Origin: a virus
Length of the DNA: 20,850 nucleotides
IMG/VR virus record: IMGVR_UViG_3300046530_000140
Location: 1 to 20,850 of that record
Reading direction: 5' to 3' (one strand)
A program made the position numbers and the translations under genes. The notes under the pieces were generated by a model. It saw only the letters and a program-made list of their open reading frames with translations. It was not told the DNA's origin and searched no databases. Below, piece after piece: positions 4,524 through 20,849 of the stretch. The stretch's first letter is position 1; every line of letters begins with the position of its first letter.

Positions 4524-4912
4524 GCACCATTACCTGGCCGCACTTCGCCGCGGCTGAATTGCGCTGCAAGTGTGGCAAGTGCAACAGCACCGGCGCCGAG
4601 ATGGATCCGGCGTTCATGGCCGAGCTGGTGACCCTGCGTCAGCAGTTTGGCCGGCCCATGGCACTGAGCAGCGCTTACCGCTGCCCGAAACACCCGGTGG
4701 AGGTGAACAAGCCTGCACCAGGTGAGCACTGCACCGGCCTGGCGGTTGATGTGCGCTGTCGTGGTGAAGACGCAGTGGAGATCCTGCGCCTGGCCATGAA
4801 CCTGAAGTTCACCCGCTTCGGCATCAGCCAGCGCGGTAACGCTCGTTTCCTGCACCTGGGCATGGCGCCGGCCGGTGGCCGATTCCCCAGCCCCGCGATC
4901 TGGAGCTACTGA
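4520..4912 (+). CDS. Endolysin, M15-type D-Ala-D-Ala peptidase
   Basis: Predicted 130-residue zinc peptidase expected to cut peptidoglycan cross-links at lysis. Visible zinc-ligand pattern: H70 and D77 (EHCTGLAVD, the HxxxxxxD motif) and H112 in FLHLG; SSAYRCP at residues 50-56 is the conserved substrate-site block. The N-terminal CKCGKC (residues 16-21) is common in phage and Mu-like M15A members. There is no signal peptide, so a holin would be needed for export. The ATG at 4520 sits in an ATGA overlap with the zinc-finger gene. Endolysin genes in P2 lie between X and R; here the gene lies between the tube and tape-measure genes. Confidence 0.82.
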   Translation: MSTITWPHFAAAELRCKCGKCNSTGAEMDPAFMAELVTLRQQFGRPMALSSAYRCPKHPVEVNKPAPGEHCTGLAVDVRCRGEDAVEILRLAMNLKFTRFGISQRGNARFLHLGMAPAGGRFPSPAIWSY

Positions 4913-5149
4913 ATGCACCGCAACCGTAAACAGTTGCTCGTACCTGCTGGCGTGCTGATGGCGGTGCTTCTCATGCAATGGGACAGCTTCGCCGAGTACT
5001 TCGAGGGCTCCTATGCGGACGACGTGGCAATCGTCGCTGGGGCGTACTGCCTGGCCCCTGAAAAGTGGCGCGGCATGTTCCGTCAGGTGATCGATGACGC
5101 TGCTGCGCCGAACAAGATCCGTGTGGAGTGCGCCGCCGATGGCCTTTAG
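4913..5149 (+). CDS. Small membrane or exported protein, lysis block
   Basis: Predicted 78-residue protein that starts directly after the endolysin stop. Residues 1-6 are basic (MHRNRK), followed by a hydrophobic stretch (about residues 8-21, LLVPAGVLMAVLLM), which makes a signal anchor or uncleaved signal peptide; the remainder is soluble and contains two cysteines. Placement next to the endolysin suggests a lysis function such as a holin partner or spanin subunit, but no family motif is recognised and a single membrane segment with a sizeable outer domain is not diagnostic. It overlaps the next gene by 11 bases. The reading frame is certain from spacing; the function is unknown. Confidence 0.6.
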   Translation: MHRNRKQLLVPAGVLMAVLLMQWDSFAEYFEGSYADDVAIVAGAYCLAPEKWRGMFRQVIDDAAAPNKIRVECAADGL

Positions 5150-5501
5150 GAGCGAGCTGGTCGTCAAGGCCGTGAAGGGCACCAAGCAATGGCAGCTGAT
5201 CAGGCCGCTGTTCTACCTGACGGCCAGCAACAAGCTGGTGACGGTGCCCAAGTGCTACCGCACCGACCTGGCCAGCGTGCCCCGGCCGGTCTGGTGGTTG
5301 ATCCCGCGTGACGACGAGTGCGCCCGGCGCCCATCGGTGGTGCACGACTTCATTTACACCCATGGCACCTGGACCTTCACCAAGGCCGAGGCTGACCAGA
5401 TCTTTTATGACGCCTTGCTCGAGGAGGGCATGCCCAAGCCTCTGGCCTGGCTGATGTACGCCGCCGTCCGGATTGGCGGGCGTGGCAACTGGAGCGCGTG
5501 A
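5139..5501 (+). CDS. DUF1353 family phage protein
   Basis: Predicted 120-residue protein. The ATG at 5139 lies in the end of the preceding gene; it gives the usual family N-terminus (FRSELVVKAVKGTKQWQL). The family signature is clear: YRTDLASVPRPVWWLIP at about residues 37-53, then RRPSVVHDFIYTH with the conserved VVHD, followed by ADQIFYDAL. DUF1353 proteins are frequent in phage lysis and tail regions; their biochemical role is not established. Its location in the small-gene block between endolysin and tail chaperone fits that pattern. An upstream ATG at 5094 would add 15 residues inside the neighbouring gene and is less likely. Confidence 0.8.
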   Translation: MAFRSELVVKAVKGTKQWQLIRPLFYLTASNKLVTVPKCYRTDLASVPRPVWWLIPRDDECARRPSVVHDFIYTHGTWTFTKAEADQIFYDALLEEGMPKPLAWLMYAAVRIGGRGNWSA

Positions 5502-5502
5502 A

Positions 5503-5760
5503 ATGGAGCTTTCAGCCATGGCCGTGAGCGTACTGCTGATGCTGACCGAACTGGTTCTCACCGGTGTGGTGGGCTTTCAGATGTACCTCTTCAAACAGAT
5601 CAGCGCGGCCCGTCGTGAGCACCTGGAGTTTCGTATCGAGGTCGCCGAGCGATACGTGCGGGCCGAGCACATCGACAAGGCCATGGAAAAGCTGGAAGAC
5701 CGGCTGGAACAACGCCTGCAGCACCTTTTTAACCAACCCCCACAACGGAAAAGAACATGA
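5503..5760 (+). CDS. Small membrane-anchored coiled-coil protein
   Basis: Predicted 85-residue protein with one hydrophobic segment near residues 6-28 (AMAVSVLLMLTELVLTGVVGF), then a heavily charged helix (RREHLEFRIEVAERYVRAEH and KAMEKLEDRLEQRLQHL), and a basic tail. The topology of one N-terminal anchor plus a long helical domain resembles inner-membrane spanins and some tail-associated membrane proteins, but no family is recognised. The ATG at 5503 follows the DUF1353 stop by one base and its own stop overlaps the chaperone ATG in ATGA. I consider an i-spanin or accessory lysis role possible, not shown. Confidence 0.6.
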   Translation: MELSAMAVSVLLMLTELVLTGVVGFQMYLFKQISAARREHLEFRIEVAERYVRAEHIDKAMEKLEDRLEQRLQHLFNQPPQRKRT

Positions 5761-6044
5761 GCGAAAAACGCGATATCACCCTGGAAGTCGGCACCCAAGA
5801 ATTCACCTTCACCCTGACGCCCCAGGACGTGACCAAGTACTTCAACGCCGTGACCGCCAACAACAAGGTGGCGCCATCCCACAACCTGCTGAGCAACACC
5901 GTCGTGGCCGAGCAGCGCGCCGATCTGCGCACGTTGTTGGCCAACCCGGTGATGACCATGCAGATCGCCGGTGCCCTGCTCGAGGAGTACGCGCCGGACG
6001 TTGAGATCATCGTAAAAAAGCACTCGACCACGCTGAGCGCCTGA
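5757..6044 (+). CDS. E: Tail assembly chaperone, short form (E-like)
   Basis: Predicted 95-residue protein made by normal decoding. In P2-type and lambda-type phages this protein, with its frameshifted longer form, coats the tape measure during tail tube assembly and is absent from virions. It begins with beta-rich DITLEVGTQEFTFTLTPQDV and KYFNAVTANNKVAPSHNLL, typical of phage tail assembly chaperones just before the tape measure. The ATG overlaps the preceding stop. Codons 86-88 (GTA AAA AAG) contain the frameshift site described separately. Gene position next to the tape measure strongly supports the call. Confidence 0.82.
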   Translation: MSEKRDITLEVGTQEFTFTLTPQDVTKYFNAVTANNKVAPSHNLLSNTVVAEQRADLRTLLANPVMTMQIAGALLEEYAPDVEIIVKKHSTTLSA

Positions 6045-6208
6045 GCGAGGACGGACTAGGTCAGCTGCTGGCCTTGTCCAGTCGCTGGCTACCTGGTCAG
6101 GAGCCCACACCCGAGGTGATGGGCACGGCCAAGTGGCTGGAAGACGAACACTGGAAACGCATGGAAATCGCCGTGGCTAACGGCATCGCCCATGCTCTGA
6201 ACGGATAA
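5757..6208 (+). CDS. Tail assembly chaperone, frameshifted long form (E+E')
   Basis: Fusion made by -1 frameshifting at 6014-6020. Zero-frame decoding to codon 88 is followed by codons from 6020 in the -1 frame, giving about 150 residues and ending at TAA 6206-6208, six bases before the tape measure ATG. The added part is open and protein-like: AERLSEDGLGQLLALSSRWL, then PEVMGTAKWLEDEHWKRMEI and ANGIAHALNG. It has no credible start codon of its own with a ribosome site, and it fills what would otherwise be an empty 170-base gap. This matches the P2 E/E+E' and lambda G/GT arrangement. The extension probably contacts the tube protein; that is known from lambda and inferred here. Confidence 0.78.
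6014..6020 (+). promoter_or_regulatory. Programmed -1 ribosomal frameshift site, A AAA AAG
   Basis: The heptamer AAAAAAG sits in the X XXY YYZ phase relative to the E frame (GTA AAA AAG). This is the same slippery heptamer used by E. coli dnaX. After a -1 slip both lysyl tRNAs re-pair with AAA AAA and reading continues from 6020 without a stop until 6206. A short hairpin is possible with CGCT 6031-6034 pairing AGCG 6044-6047; I could not fold the region to judge its strength. Confidence 0.8.
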
Positions 6209-6214
6209 AAACAC

Positions 6215-8197
6215 ATGGCTGACCGCGCCGCCCGCCTGGCCTTCATCTTGAGTCTGACCGACAAGGTCACCGCGCCCCTGGGCAAGGTGAAAATGGGTTT
6301 TTCCGACCTTGCTGAGCAGGGCGAAAAGAACATCAAGACGATGGGCTTGGGCTTGGGCGGCTTGGTCGGCGCCGGTGTGGCAATCACCCAGTCTTTGGCA
6401 CCAGCCCTGGAGATGAACCGCGCCCTGGGCGAGGTCAGATCGCTGGGCGTGGCCGAAGACGCGCTGACCGCGCTCAATCAAAAGGCGCTGGAGTTCTCTG
6501 TCGACTACGCCGCCAATGCCCGGGATTTCGTGGCATCGGCGTCGACGATCGATGGCGCCATCAAAGGATTGACCGCCAGCCAGCTGACCTCGATCACCAA
6601 CACCAGCAACGTGCTGGCCAAGGCGACCAAGGCCGACGCAGAAACCACCAGCGCCTACGTGGGCACCATGTACAACCTGTTCAAGGGTCAGGCGGACGCC
6701 TTCGGCAAAACCGAATGGATCGAGAAGCTGGGCGGGCAGACTGCGCTTGCGGTGAAGCTGTTCCGCACCGATGGCGCGCAGTTGAAGGATGCCTTCAAGG
6801 AAGTCGGCTCGATCGCCACCACGGCGGGAGTGGACCTGGCCGAGCAGTTCGCGGTGATCGGCTCGCTGAGCAGCACCATGGAAGGCGGCGACGCCGGCGG
6901 CATTTACAAATCGTTCTTCGAAAACATCGGCAGCGCCTCGGAAAAGCTGGGGATGAAGTTCGTCGACCAGAACGGCAAGTTGCTGCCGATGCTCGACATC
7001 CTTGGCAAGTTGGAGGGTAAGTTCGGTGATCTGAACAGTGCCAACGCGGGCGCCAAGCTGATCGACGCCTTTGGCGGCGAAGGTGCGCGCGTGATCACGG
7101 CACTGGCCAAGGACACCGATCGCCTGCGCATCGGCATGGACCAGTTGGGCAAGATTCGCGGCTTGGAGAGTGCCGAGCAGATGGCCAAGGCCATGGTCGA
7201 TCCGTGGGCGCAATGGACGTCCCTGGTCGAAAGCATGCGCGCTTTGTTTGGCCAGGTGCTGATCCCGGTCCTGGCGCCGTTCATGGAGAAGATGGTGGCG
7301 ATCGGCAAGGCGCTGATGCGCTGGGTCACCCTGTTTCCCAACATCACCCGCGTGATTGGCATCACCGCACTGACCATCTTCGGCATCATCGCCGCTATGT
7401 CCCTGCTGACACTGGCGGTGGGCATGTCGAAGATGGTGTGGTTGGGGATGCTGACGGTCTGGAAGCTGCTGAACTGGACCGGCTACCGCAGCATCGCCAT
7501 GTTCCTGTTCCACACCGTCATGACGATCGCCTTCGTCGCCGGCCTGGTGCTGCTGTACACCTGGATGGGCCTGGTCAAGGTCGGGATGGTGGCGTGGCAG
7601 GCCGCTATCTGGCTGGTCAACGGCGCGCTGCTGGCCAACCCGGTGCTGTTGATCGTTGTCGGCATCGTTGCCCTGGTCGCGGCGGTGGTCGCCGCCATCT
7701 ATTACTGGGACGAATGGACCGCCGCCTTGATGAACAGCGCCGCCTTCCAGTGGGTCAGCGATCAGTTCAAGGCCCTTTCCGACTGGTTCAGCTCCATGGG
7801 CGGCTGGTCCGCCATGGCCAAAGGCGCTTGGGACAGCATCGTCGGTGTCTTCTACAAGGCCATCAACAGCCTGATCGAGATGATCAACAGCATCCCGGGC
7901 GTGAACATCGAAGCGCGCTTTGGCGGCATCCCTGAAGTACCAGGAGTCGACGCGGCAGTAAGTGCAGCCAACACCGCCGGCGCTGGGCAGAAAGCTCAGG
8001 AGAGCATCAACGGGGCCATTCCAAGCCTTTCCCCCACGCGGCCGACGGCCGTGCCCCCGGGCGGATTGCTGACCAGCATTCAGAACACCAAAAACCAGAC
8101 CAAGACCACTCCAGTGGAGAACGTGAACATCTACACCAGCAAACCAATGACCCCGCTGGAGCTGGAAAACATGGTCGCGATGGGGGTAGGCGGATGA
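6215..8197 (+). CDS. T: Tail tape measure protein (gpT-like)
   Basis: Predicted 660-residue protein, the longest in the tail block before the spike. It sets tail length and is threaded through the tube into the host membrane. Residues 1-30 (RAARLAFILSLTDKVTAPLGK) and the region up to about 330 resemble the TP901-type tape measure core (helical, Ala/Gly-rich, with EFSVDYAANARDFVASAS). Four hydrophobic segments follow at roughly 380-405, 428-450, 456-472 and 474-498, suited to membrane penetration. The C-terminus is Pro/Thr rich. It starts six bases after the E' stop and overlaps the next ATG in ATGA form. The length predicts a tail of the order of 100 nm using the usual 1.5 angstrom per residue rule. 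Confidence 0.88.
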   Translation: MADRAARLAFILSLTDKVTAPLGKVKMGFSDLAEQGEKNIKTMGLGLGGLVGAGVAITQSLAPALEMNRALGEVRSLGVAEDALTALNQKALEFSVDYAANARDFVASASTIDGAIKGLTASQLTSITNTSNVLAKATKADAETTSAYVGTMYNLFKGQADAFGKTEWIEKLGGQTALAVKLFRTDGAQLKDAFKEVGSIATTAGVDLAEQFAVIGSLSSTMEGGDAGGIYKSFFENIGSASEKLGMKFVDQNGKLLPMLDILGKLEGKFGDLNSANAGAKLIDAFGGEGARVITALAKDTDRLRIGMDQLGKIRGLESAEQMAKAMVDPWAQWTSLVESMRALFGQVLIPVLAPFMEKMVAIGKALMRWVTLFPNITRVIGITALTIFGIIAAMSLLTLAVGMSKMVWLGMLTVWKLLNWTGYRSIAMFLFHTVMTIAFVAGLVLLYTWMGLVKVGMVAWQAAIWLVNGALLANPVLLIVVGIVALVAAVVAAIYYWDEWTAALMNSAAFQWVSDQFKALSDWFSSMGGWSAMAKGAWDSIVGVFYKAINSLIEMINSIPGVNIEARFGGIPEVPGVDAAVSAANTAGAGQKAQESINGAIPSLSPTRPTAVPPGGLLTSIQNTKNQTKTTPVENVNIYTSKPMTPLELENMVAMGVGG

Positions 8198-18749: not shown

Positions 18750-19274
18750 CTATTTCCGTTTACCGGCGGGTTTTTCTTCTTCGCTCTCGCTCGGAGTCCG
18801 CTTCCGTCGTCCAGTGATGAATGCAGCGATGATGCCCCCGAACCCGACGGTTCCGATTGCGCTAGCAGCTATCTCATGCCCTTGAAGAGCTAGGTACACC
18901 ACGGCACCAATTACGGCTAACGCAATGATCAAAGCGAACAGCTGGCCTACCAAGATTTCTACGACATACCATGTCGATAGCTTTTCATCGATGGCAATGG
19001 ATCGACTTTCTATACCCTGCCGGTGAGCAGTTTGACTGGTTGTCCAATGGACAATTTCCTGAGCAAGCCCAGGAACCACTGAGTCATATTCGCTGAGAAG
19101 CGAAGGTGGAGGAAGAGGACCTTGAAAGGCGGTGGTGACCATTCCGGTCCGCTTTCTCTCACGTTCAATTGTGCCTGTTCGAGGCTCTTCGCGAGCCTCA
19201 GGCTTGTTGGGCACCACGTTCTTTGGCTTCTGTGACACGCTGGCTGCCTTGCTCTGCTGCTTTATAGAAGTCAT
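18750..19274 (-). CDS. DUF2335 membrane protein (moron)
   Basis: Predicted 174-residue inner-membrane protein on the minus strand. The chosen start is the ATG at 19274 because AGG lies about nine bases upstream and the N-terminus then becomes MTSIKQQSK; longer versions with a basic Cys-rich extension are possible. The N-terminal 60 residues are charged and disordered. The central PPPSLLSEYDSVVPGLAQEIV and TAHRQGIESRSI segments resemble DUF2335, and two hydrophobic segments (about 105-130 and 136-155, the second with GTVGFGGIIAAFITG) follow, ending in a basic tail. Orientation opposite to the tail operon and its own candidate promoter suggest expression in the lysogen. The function is unknown; exclusion or host modification is speculation. 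Confidence 0.68.
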   Translation of the reverse strand: MTSIKQQSKAASVSQKPKNVVPNKPEAREEPRTGTIERERKRTGMVTTAFQGPLPPPSLLSEYDSVVPGLAQEIVHWTTSQTAHRQGIESRSIAIDEKLSTWYVVEILVGQLFALIIALAVIGAVVYLALQGHEIAASAIGTVGFGGIIAAFITGRRKRTPSESEEEKPAGKRK

Positions 19275-19425
19275 GACCGATCGCCTGCACATCTTCTTGC
19301 AGCGCTTCAAAGTCGGTTCGTGCTAGTTCGGATCCGTGGCCACGATAGTGGCTATAGCCTTGTGCTGGCCAAAGCACCAAAACGGACCCGATGCCTGAGA
19401 GCAGATTCTTGAGCATACGATTCAC
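19198..19425 (-). CDS. Small exported protein overlapping DUF2335 gene
   Basis: Predicted 75-residue protein on the minus strand starting at GTG 19425 (ATG 19416 is an alternative three codons in). The N-terminus has a basic start and a hydrophobic core (LLSGIGSVLVLWPAQG, about residues 7-22), consistent with a signal peptide or anchor; the mature part is hydrophilic and helical (TDFEALQEDVQAIGHDFYKAAEQ). It overlaps the next gene by 77 bases in another frame, longer than the usual 4-20 bases, so translation is probably coupled. It likely works with the DUF2335 protein. No family is recognised, but a short signal peptide with small helical tail before a membrane protein suggests an envelope function. 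Confidence 0.6.
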   Translation of the reverse strand: MNRMLKNLLSGIGSVLVLWPAQGYSHYRGHGSELARTDFEALQEDVQAIGHDFYKAAEQGSQRVTEAKERGAQQA

Positions 19426-19489: not shown

Positions 19490-20640
19490 TAAATAAGACA
19501 CCTTTCAATCACTTCCGTTTCAGTCCGTTTGGAATTGGTTGACAGTTGCCTCAAGTCAAGAATGGCATGCTGATGGAAGCCTGTACAGTGTGGTTTTGAA
19601 CACGCTGTAAATATGTCCAGGCTGGTTAGGGTTCGAGACTCACCTCTTCAGCGGTTCAAGGTCCGCTCAACTTGCAGCATAGCTGCACCCAGCAAAAATC
19701 CGACCCGAGAATAAAAAACGGTCGGAAAAATCACTTATCCCCCTCCCGCCGACGGGCCTTGCGTCCTTTTTTTGTGCAAATCCGGATGTAGTGCAAACGA
19801 AGCTGCAGCCCAGGCGGGCCGTGGGGCTCTGCAGGCGATCGGCAATTTCACAAAGTGCAAAGTTTTGAAGGGAAATGAAGCGCGGTTGCGCTGCGGTGCA
19901 CGGGGTGGTCACGAAGGGGATATCGCTGGAGTGCCCGGTTTCATTGGGCGAAAACTTTGAAAACGTAGGTTTCAGTGGATTTTCAAAAACGCACACGATC
20001 TTTTTCGGGCGGAGAAAGGCAGTGGGTGGGTATAGGCTTAATTCCCTGTAAGCCACGTGCGGCAAGGGTTTCGGGCGGGATGCAGCGTTTCAGTGGCTTT
20101 CACACTCGGGAGGCATTCGGTAGGGGATCACAGGAAGGCGCCAAGGCTTCAGAAAAAACCTTTTCTAGGTAACCCCCTCCAGACGTGTAAGTGGTGTCAG
20201 GAGTGTCAGAAAGCGGCTGGAAGCCCCGTATTTGCTGGGGATAGTCACTTACAGTAGGAGTGTAGGAAACTGTAAGTGGAGTATGGCTCGAAAAAAAAGC
20301 CTTATAAATCAATGGTTTGAGATAGCCTTCACTTACAGTCTAAAACTGTATGCAAAAAACAGCTGTCCGACACTTCACTTACAGTTTTGAGAATCTTCAA
20401 TCCCTTGATTTGTAAGGGTTTAAGAGAAAATAGAAATCTCACTTACACTTCTTACATGTTTTTGAGGGTAGGACCGGAAAACTTTTTCCCCTCGCATAGG
20501 GGGTGTGTGATTGATGCGAGGACACTCATTGCGGACTTGAGAAATCGGGACTCTCGAGCATGCCTCTCACCCGCTGGCCACCTGGTCTCTGGCAGCTGCA
20601 GCAGGAACCTGTCCGCAACGCGAAACAGGGGAGGGTGGTT
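19490..20640. other. Non-coding stretch between moron genes and attachment end
   Basis: No reading frame here has convincing composition; the frames present are short and of low coding character. Visible structure: an inverted repeat TCCGACC/GGTCGGA (19699-19705/19720-19726), two repeated 10-mers (GTTTCAGTGG at 19969 and 20087; TTTCGGGCGG at 20003 and 20069), the CACTTACA cluster (20186-20447), and an inverted repeat CCTCGCAT/ATGCGAGG (20490-20497/20514-20521). The region is more AT rich in its right half than the tail genes. I see no RNA gene that I can name. Confidence 0.6.
20186..20447. repeat. Six CACTTACA motifs in both orientations
   Basis: Copies: TGTAAGTG at 20186-20193 and ACTGTAAGTG at 20269-20278 (one orientation), and CACTTACAGT at 20246-20255, 20330-20339, 20376-20385 plus CACTTACA at 20440-20447 (opposite orientation). 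Spacing between neighbouring starts is about 60, 23, 61, 46 and 64 bases. Partial copies (ACTGTA at 20345, TGTAAG at 20411, CTTACAT at 20451) lie among them. A cluster of this kind next to an attachment end suits arm-type integrase or excisionase sites; iterons of a replication origin are an alternative. Confidence 0.7.
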
Positions 20641-20681
20641 GGTGGCGTAAAAAACTGCGGTTACGCCATTTTTACGCCACC
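20641..20681. repeat. 13-bp inverted repeat GGTGGCGTAAAAA
   Basis: GGTGGCGTAAAAA (20641-20653) and TTTTTACGCCACC (20669-20681) are perfect inverted copies with a 15-base centre that holds a third TTACGCC (20661-20667). It lies 44 bases from the encoded CCA of tRNA-Leu. It could be a protein binding site at the prophage end or a hairpin. Confidence 0.7.
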
Positions 20682-20683
20682 CA

Positions 20684-20713
20684 TAAAAAAAGGCCTTGAT
20701 AATCAAGGCCTTT
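20684..20713 (-). terminator. Rho-independent terminator of tRNA-Leu
   Basis: Read on the minus strand: AAAGGCCTTGAT and ATCAAGGCCTTT form an 11- to 12-bp near-palindromic stem, then a run of T's (plus-strand A's 20684-20690). It begins 11 bases after the encoded CCA of the tRNA. Confidence 0.85.
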
Positions 20714-20724
20714 CTTCGTTGTGT

Positions 20725-20809
20725 TGGTGCCCCGAGGGAGACTCGAACTCCCACTCCTTTCGAAAACGGATTTTGAATCCGCCGCGTCTACCAATTCCGC
20801 CATCAGGGC
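20725..20809 (-). tRNA. tRNA-Leu, anticodon CAA
   Basis: An 85-base tRNA including the encoded 3' CCA (20725-20727). The acceptor stem pairs GCCCTGA (ends at 20809) with TCGGGGC with one G-T pair. The D-arm carries GGCGGAATTGGTAGACGC, the anticodon loop TTCAAAA gives CAA (plus-strand 20773-20775), the long variable arm is typical of class II leucine tRNAs, and the T-arm contains GTTCGAGTC. The 3' end faces the prophage, so the tRNA 3' half is the expected attachment core; no second copy of it lies in the window. Confidence 0.95.
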
Positions 20810-20820
20810 AATGGCCGCGG

Positions 20821-20849
20821 AGTATAGAGATGAGATAACCGTCGGTCAA
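20821..20849 (-). promoter_or_regulatory. Sigma70 promoter of tRNA-Leu with GC-rich discriminator
   Basis: Minus strand: -35 TTGACC (20844-20849), 17-base spacer, -10 TATACT (20821-20826), followed by CCGCGGCC as the discriminator. GC-rich discriminators mark stable-RNA promoters under stringent control. The transcription start would be about five bases before the tRNA body. Confidence 0.85.

Follow-up and report, generated by a model that had tools for sequence, protein, structure and literature searches.

The cluster of short repeats at positions 20186–20447 of the window (the whole 20,850-bp stretch of virus DNA analysed here) is very probably a phage replication origin, whose repeats would be iterons read by the phage's fused primase-helicase. 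We favour this reading because the repeat motif covaries with the primase, eight of nine arrays classed later go with the matching primase class, a sister lineage has its array beside the primase gene, and the predicted fold of the primase is that of an iteron-reading helicase family. The reading is also favoured because each genome has one main array, with an A+T-rich centre and with IHF matches at preferred offsets.

The array and its setting in the window

The window, a virus record with P2-like tail genes, covers part of a Pseudomonas P2-like prophage and its junction with tRNA-Leu. The phage closest to it is Pseudomonas phage UFJF_PfPro (PQ412991, Peduoviridae), and searches of plasmid and phage DNA with the window gave matches mostly to the tRNA-Leu. 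The prophage end is organized as follows.

19734–19750, plus strand: cos-like sequence CTTATCCCCCTCCCGCC (ends of PQ412991, and relatives)
20186–20447, both strands: iteron array, putative replication origin (repeat count, shuffles, place and span kept in relatives)
20186(+), 20246(−), 20271(+), 20330(−), 20376(−), 20411(+; TGTAAGGG) and 20440(−): TGTAAGTG-oriented sites of the array
20195–20211, plus strand: pair of sites matching the nearest sister class of arrays, TGTCAG(A/G)A at 20195 and 20204
20285–20435, unstranded: A+T-rich part of the array, candidate melting region between two iteron sets (GC per 100 bp)
20307–20319, plus strand: IHF consensus match WATCAANNNNTTR, one of the only two in the window
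20398–20410, minus strand: the other IHF consensus match, inverted to the first
20641–20679, unstranded: probable integrase arm-type sites, TTACGCC at 20644(−), 20661(+) and 20672(+) (comparison with relative G003)
20685–20698, unstranded: probable attR core AAAAAAAGGCCTTG, adjoining tRNA-Leu (G003 repeat and identity)
20725–20809, minus strand: tRNA-Leu, anticodon CAA, integration target (tRNA call)

Since the linear PfPro record starts and ends within CTTATCCCCCTCCCGCC, this sequence is probably cos. The same 17-mer is present in at least 118 related loci, and in the window the array begins 452 bp downstream of it. Between the tail genes and cos lies a minus-strand ORF (18750–19310) that matches DUF2335 membrane proteins and is likely a cargo (moron) gene. 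At the other side of the array, positions 20658–20849 are 93.8% identical to the right end of the G003 prophage.

The array contains six exact CACTTACA/TGTAAGTG sites in both orientations (20186(−), 20246(+), 20271(−), 20330(+), 20376(+) and 20440(+) in the CACTTACA/TGTAAGTG listing), together with the near-copy CCCTTACA at 20411, which has one mismatch and is (−) in that listing; the fuller form of the site is the 10-mer cTGTAAGTGA. The initial annotation had described a six-copy cluster in both orientations at 20186–20447, with partial copies in between, adjoining the prophage end and at a density absent from the tail genes, and the description stands. Exact counting found no copy of CACTTACA elsewhere in the 20,850 bp, the partial copies include the two TGTCAG(A/G)A sites, and tRNA-Leu(CAA) was found at the expected end. 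The highest count of any 8-mer per 300 bp was 6 in the array and 2–3 in 100 dinucleotide shuffles of the whole window, and in 500 local shuffles every 8-mer stayed at three copies or fewer per 300 bp.

GC content is 35–39% at 20285–20435, compared with 50–60% in the surrounding DNA, and an A+T-rich centre is seen in every array class. Across arrays, 34 IHF consensus matches were observed against 1.95 expected, at preferred offsets. Imperfect hairpin-like stretches common to the arrays lie between the iterons (CTGGAGGCC..GTTTTACTGGGG and CCTTGATTTnnAAGGG; 20210–20240 and 20395–20425 in the window). They show weak base-pair covariation; apart from the iterons, an alignment of 66 arrays yielded no convincing conserved hairpin in RNAalifold.

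Conservation of the array and covariation with the primase

Relatives were fetched from IMG/VR by the cos-like 17-mer, which gave at least 118 loci with enough downstream sequence. Among the matches listed, 84 of 118 loci have an array downstream of cos, with a span of mostly 246–271 bp. The array starts by default about 465 bp past cos, and at 0.8–4 kb where other genes are inserted; the cos-to-array stretch is an insertion hotspot, holding 1.5–3.5 kb of variable genes in loci L073, L085, L094, L113, L118, L120, L129, L150 and L030. Every full genome read has a single main array. In two loci with a primase (L097 and L126) no array was found within the stretch available.

The 8-bp motif itself varies by phage, being TGTAAGTG, TGTCAGAT, RGYRATAT or GGTAATTT. 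The PfPro array, at the matching place, has TCTGACAG instead of CACTTACA, and we therefore gave up the explanation by a fixed motif. Four motif superclasses are seen: TGTCAGA(T), TGTAAGTG (that of the window), RGYRATAT and GGTAAT(T/A). Inter-site offsets are similar between array classes, and in the RGYRATAT and GGTAATTT classes most early sites point one way and most late sites the other. Because arrays can be aligned across classes and share the sequence between iterons, they look like homologous elements in which the repeat unit has changed.

As judged by comparison of sequences, the array motif tracks the Toprim primase fused to a SaPI-Rep/Cch-type helicase, and not the integrase, terminase, regulators or structural proteins. 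We used a label-free test, in which array-PWM similarity was compared with protein identity by Spearman correlation in up to 40 phages per test. Because phage relatedness inflates all of these values, the proper control is the remaining proteins of those phages. The 903-aa primase gave 0.69, compared with 0.19–0.30 for the integrase, small ORFs, CII-like and HTH proteins, ogr, portal and large terminase; the integrase gave 0.24 (n=22). In the 11 fully read phages the primase reached 0.73, and the remaining proteins present phage-wide ranged from −0.16 to 0.23 (small terminase, −0.11; large terminase, −0.16; integrase, −0.02, n=7). For an ORF of 119 aa situated between cos and the array the value was 0.92, yet this ORF is found in only 5 of these 11 phages.

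The primase also separated the motif superclasses with an AUC of 1.000 (other proteins, at most 0.705), on labels in which four RGYRATAT sub-motifs had been merged after the primases had been seen. The first labels, with RGYRATAT split in four, gave an AUC of 0.89 and apparent exceptions; the sub-motifs were merged because single arrays mix the variants, and the label-free test is independent of the merging. Primase residues from about 280 to 903 separate the motif classes, the N-terminal 240 residues (Toprim part) less so. For arrays classed after the classes had been fixed, the primase class matched in eight of nine. The exception and sole clear mismatch, G074 (L030), has a GGTAATTT array with an RGYRATAT-type primase; the closest variants of the two motifs differ by one base, and a recombinant, tolerant binding or mis-assembly are possible causes. 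In G042, where the array was lost to an assembly gap, the surviving edge site AAGGTAATT is the motif predicted from the primase class. The window record is without its own primase and integrase; G045, with the same motif, stands for its class.

The large early protein is annotated as DNA primase in PHROG, with Pfam matches to Toprim_2 and DUF927 (DUF927 in the PfPro homologue). A search for PDB relatives by sequence found none. In an AlphaFold model of the G045 primase (TGTAAGTG class; pLDDT 80.5), residues 84–306 match DnaG primases, and residues 325–902 match SCCmec Cch (5dgk; Z 19.9 over 448 residues) and SaPIBov1 Rep (8tch; Z 18.9 over 430 residues). The predicted layout is a zinc finger, a DnaG-like Toprim primase, a SaPI-Rep/Cch-type helicase and a C-terminal domain. 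The C-terminal 198 residues folded without an alignment gave an uninformative model (pLDDT 38). In SaPI Rep it is the C-terminal domain that recognises the iterons (PMC7581432).

A sister lineage, including phi3, phita81A/2, PaBSM and G107, has primases about 33% identical to those of the window lineage. It has no array beside cos. A motif-free search found its densest array, of TGTTCCGG or GTGGAAGG in 10–15 copies with frequent spacings of 10–13 bp, directly 3′ of the primase gene (in phi3, gene 4638–7328 and array 7402–7713). Inside this lineage there is no clear correlation between primase and motif. In phage phi3, a gene for a reverse transcriptase (L172:1071–2756) separates cos from the integrase, in DNA that resembles a group II intron.

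Alternative readings of the array

In phage P4, the crr element is separate from ori. The array might by analogy be a partition or incompatibility element, or a crr-like second element, recognised by the same primase-helicase and not the start site; the same covariation with the initiator would be expected of it. We consider this unlikely, as the full genomes read show no second array that might be the actual origin, and PICI origins, which resemble the array, suffice as ori with Pri-Rep (PMC6092414).

The initial annotation had proposed that the cluster binds a repeated-site protein, preferring integrase or excisionase to a replication initiator. Covariation across the sequences supports a repeated-site protein and points to the initiator, and it goes against the preference. 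If the N-terminal domain of the tyrosine integrase bound the repeats as arm-type sites in one attP arm, this would explain why the array lies 240–500 bp from the attachment core, why it holds IHF consensus sites and inverted repeats, and why its site number and scale are similar to those of HP1, as had been pointed out. However, the motif does not follow the integrase: integrases about 80% identical are paired with different motifs, and one motif is paired with different integrases. The HP1-like integrase/excisionase reading is not supported. Nor do the sites lie on both sides of the core: the array is confined to one side in G045 and in every other full genome read. The comparison with the integrase end, suggested at the outset as a check on arm sites, gave no exact array sites beside the integrase in complete relatives. 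In the phi3 lineage the motif lies by the replication gene and not at the integrase end, the very arrangement that had been named as speaking against arm sites. Altogether, we hold it to be very improbable that the array is a set of arm sites.

Other sequences fit arm sites better. The attachment core of G003, which uses the same tRNA-Leu, is a 17-bp direct repeat, CGAAAAAAAAGGCCTTG, beside that tRNA and present at both prophage ends. Each end also has the TTACGCC pair seen in the window close to this core, and one of the pairs is where the integrase gene starts; yet the array motif of G003 is TGTCAGA and occurs at the array end only. In G006 and G020 the attachment core is a 49–50 bp repeat of tRNA-Thr, and in G006 TTGTTACG sites adjoin the core at both ends. 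In all 35 of 35 loci (genome and virus contigs), a TTACGCC pair and a related integrase are at most 500 bp apart, with a median of 14 bp.

The 19-mer TTACGCCATTTTTACGCCA (window 20641–20679; L239–L368) occurs in more than 100 genome stretches from several phyla, with hosts that include Pseudomonas, Acinetobacter, Lachnospiraceae and Prevotella; where a relative of the G003 integrase was found, the two are at most 500 bp apart. The 19-mer looks like a widely conserved pair of integrase arm sites across very distant hosts. The commonest integrase of the phage group (L003:2367–3515; homologues in G045, G009 and G020) matches PF22022 weakly and is recognised by phrog_1 and phrog_14425. Integrases were located by homology because a PF00589 search missed it.

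Proteins of the Cox type have several short binding repeats close to attP. An operator cluster for a Cox-like excisionase or a repressor, controlling integration and excision, would suit the place of the array, close to the prophage's att end. Against this, no covariation with the motif is seen for HTH, CII-like and small early proteins (−0.07 to 0.30), and the phi3 lineage has its array away from attP, 3′ of the primase gene, and its Cox-like gene elsewhere. Such an operator is, in our view, hardly more than a slim prospect.

A terminase recognition region for packaging, as part of cos, would suit the default position about 450 bp downstream of cos, but it is extremely improbable, given that phages with differing motifs have the identical cos 17-mer, that neither terminase covaries with the motif, that insertions shift the array to 3–4 kb from cos, and that the phi3 array is away from cos.

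A putative replication origin and its relation to known systems

If the array is the phage replication origin, each 8–10 bp repeat would be an iteron, recognised by the primase-helicase through its C-terminal half. The two iteron sets, in largely opposite orientation, flank the A+T-rich stretch. The bound initiator, perhaps with the help of IHF, would melt this stretch, and would then load as helicase hexamers and prime synthesis. GC skew in three phage records gave no origin signal. A literature search of partial coverage found no description of the array as an origin.

On the circular map of the window lineage, the array follows the 3′ end of the primase gene, with the integrase and attP in between. 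With attP between the putative origin and the initiator gene, the two therefore come to lie at opposite prophage ends after integration. We suggest, tentatively and with rather less than even confidence, that this is a split replicon in which origin and initiator switch specificity jointly, despite free recombination of the genes between and around them. Joint switching of this kind is what one would expect were diversification driven by incompatibility of co-resident prophages, or by satellites using those same iterons.

The array is a testable candidate origin of replication in a large group of Pseudomonas P2-like phages. P2-like phages, too, are probably replicated by a module of the kind known in satellites (PICI and P4). 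The array classes and their matched primases form a natural set for asking how an initiator helicase reads iterons, and could predict cross-replication among prophages or satellites.

The attP arm sites of P2 and HP1 resemble the array in having several short repeats and IHF sites near an attachment core; here, however, the arm sites are TTACGCC and TTGTTACG, near the core at both prophage ends. Phage P2 initiates rolling-circle replication with GpA, at an ori inside gene A. The structural genes and terminase of the phages studied here are P2-like, whereas their replication module appears to be a Toprim primase with a DUF927 helicase and an iteron array, probably in place of GpA.

The alpha protein of P4 is a multifunctional Toprim primase fused to a replicative helicase, an architecture that the primase here shares, and its winged-helix domain binds the origin repeats (PMC4234260). 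In contrast to P4, the helicase part here is of the DUF927/SaPIBov1-Rep/Cch type, by Pfam and by fold.

In organization, the array resembles the origins of PICIs. These origins, which with Pri-Rep make autonomous replicons, have two iteron sets flanking an A+T-rich region, an organization reported for no other known bacterial replicon (PMC6092414). The array likewise has short iterons in two sets around an A+T-rich region, and the G045 primase has the predicted SaPI Rep/Cch-type helicase fold, here fused to a Toprim primase. PICI origins lie just 3′ of the initiator gene (PMC6092414), as does the array of the phi3 lineage. In the window lineage, however, the putative origin has cos on one side and attP on the other, and about 3.4 kb separate it from the primase gene on the PfPro map. 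PICIs, moreover, are satellites, whereas these are P2-like phages with structural genes of their own. Because the array of the window lineage is not immediately 3′ of the initiator gene, we propose that it works like a PICI origin, and not that it is one.
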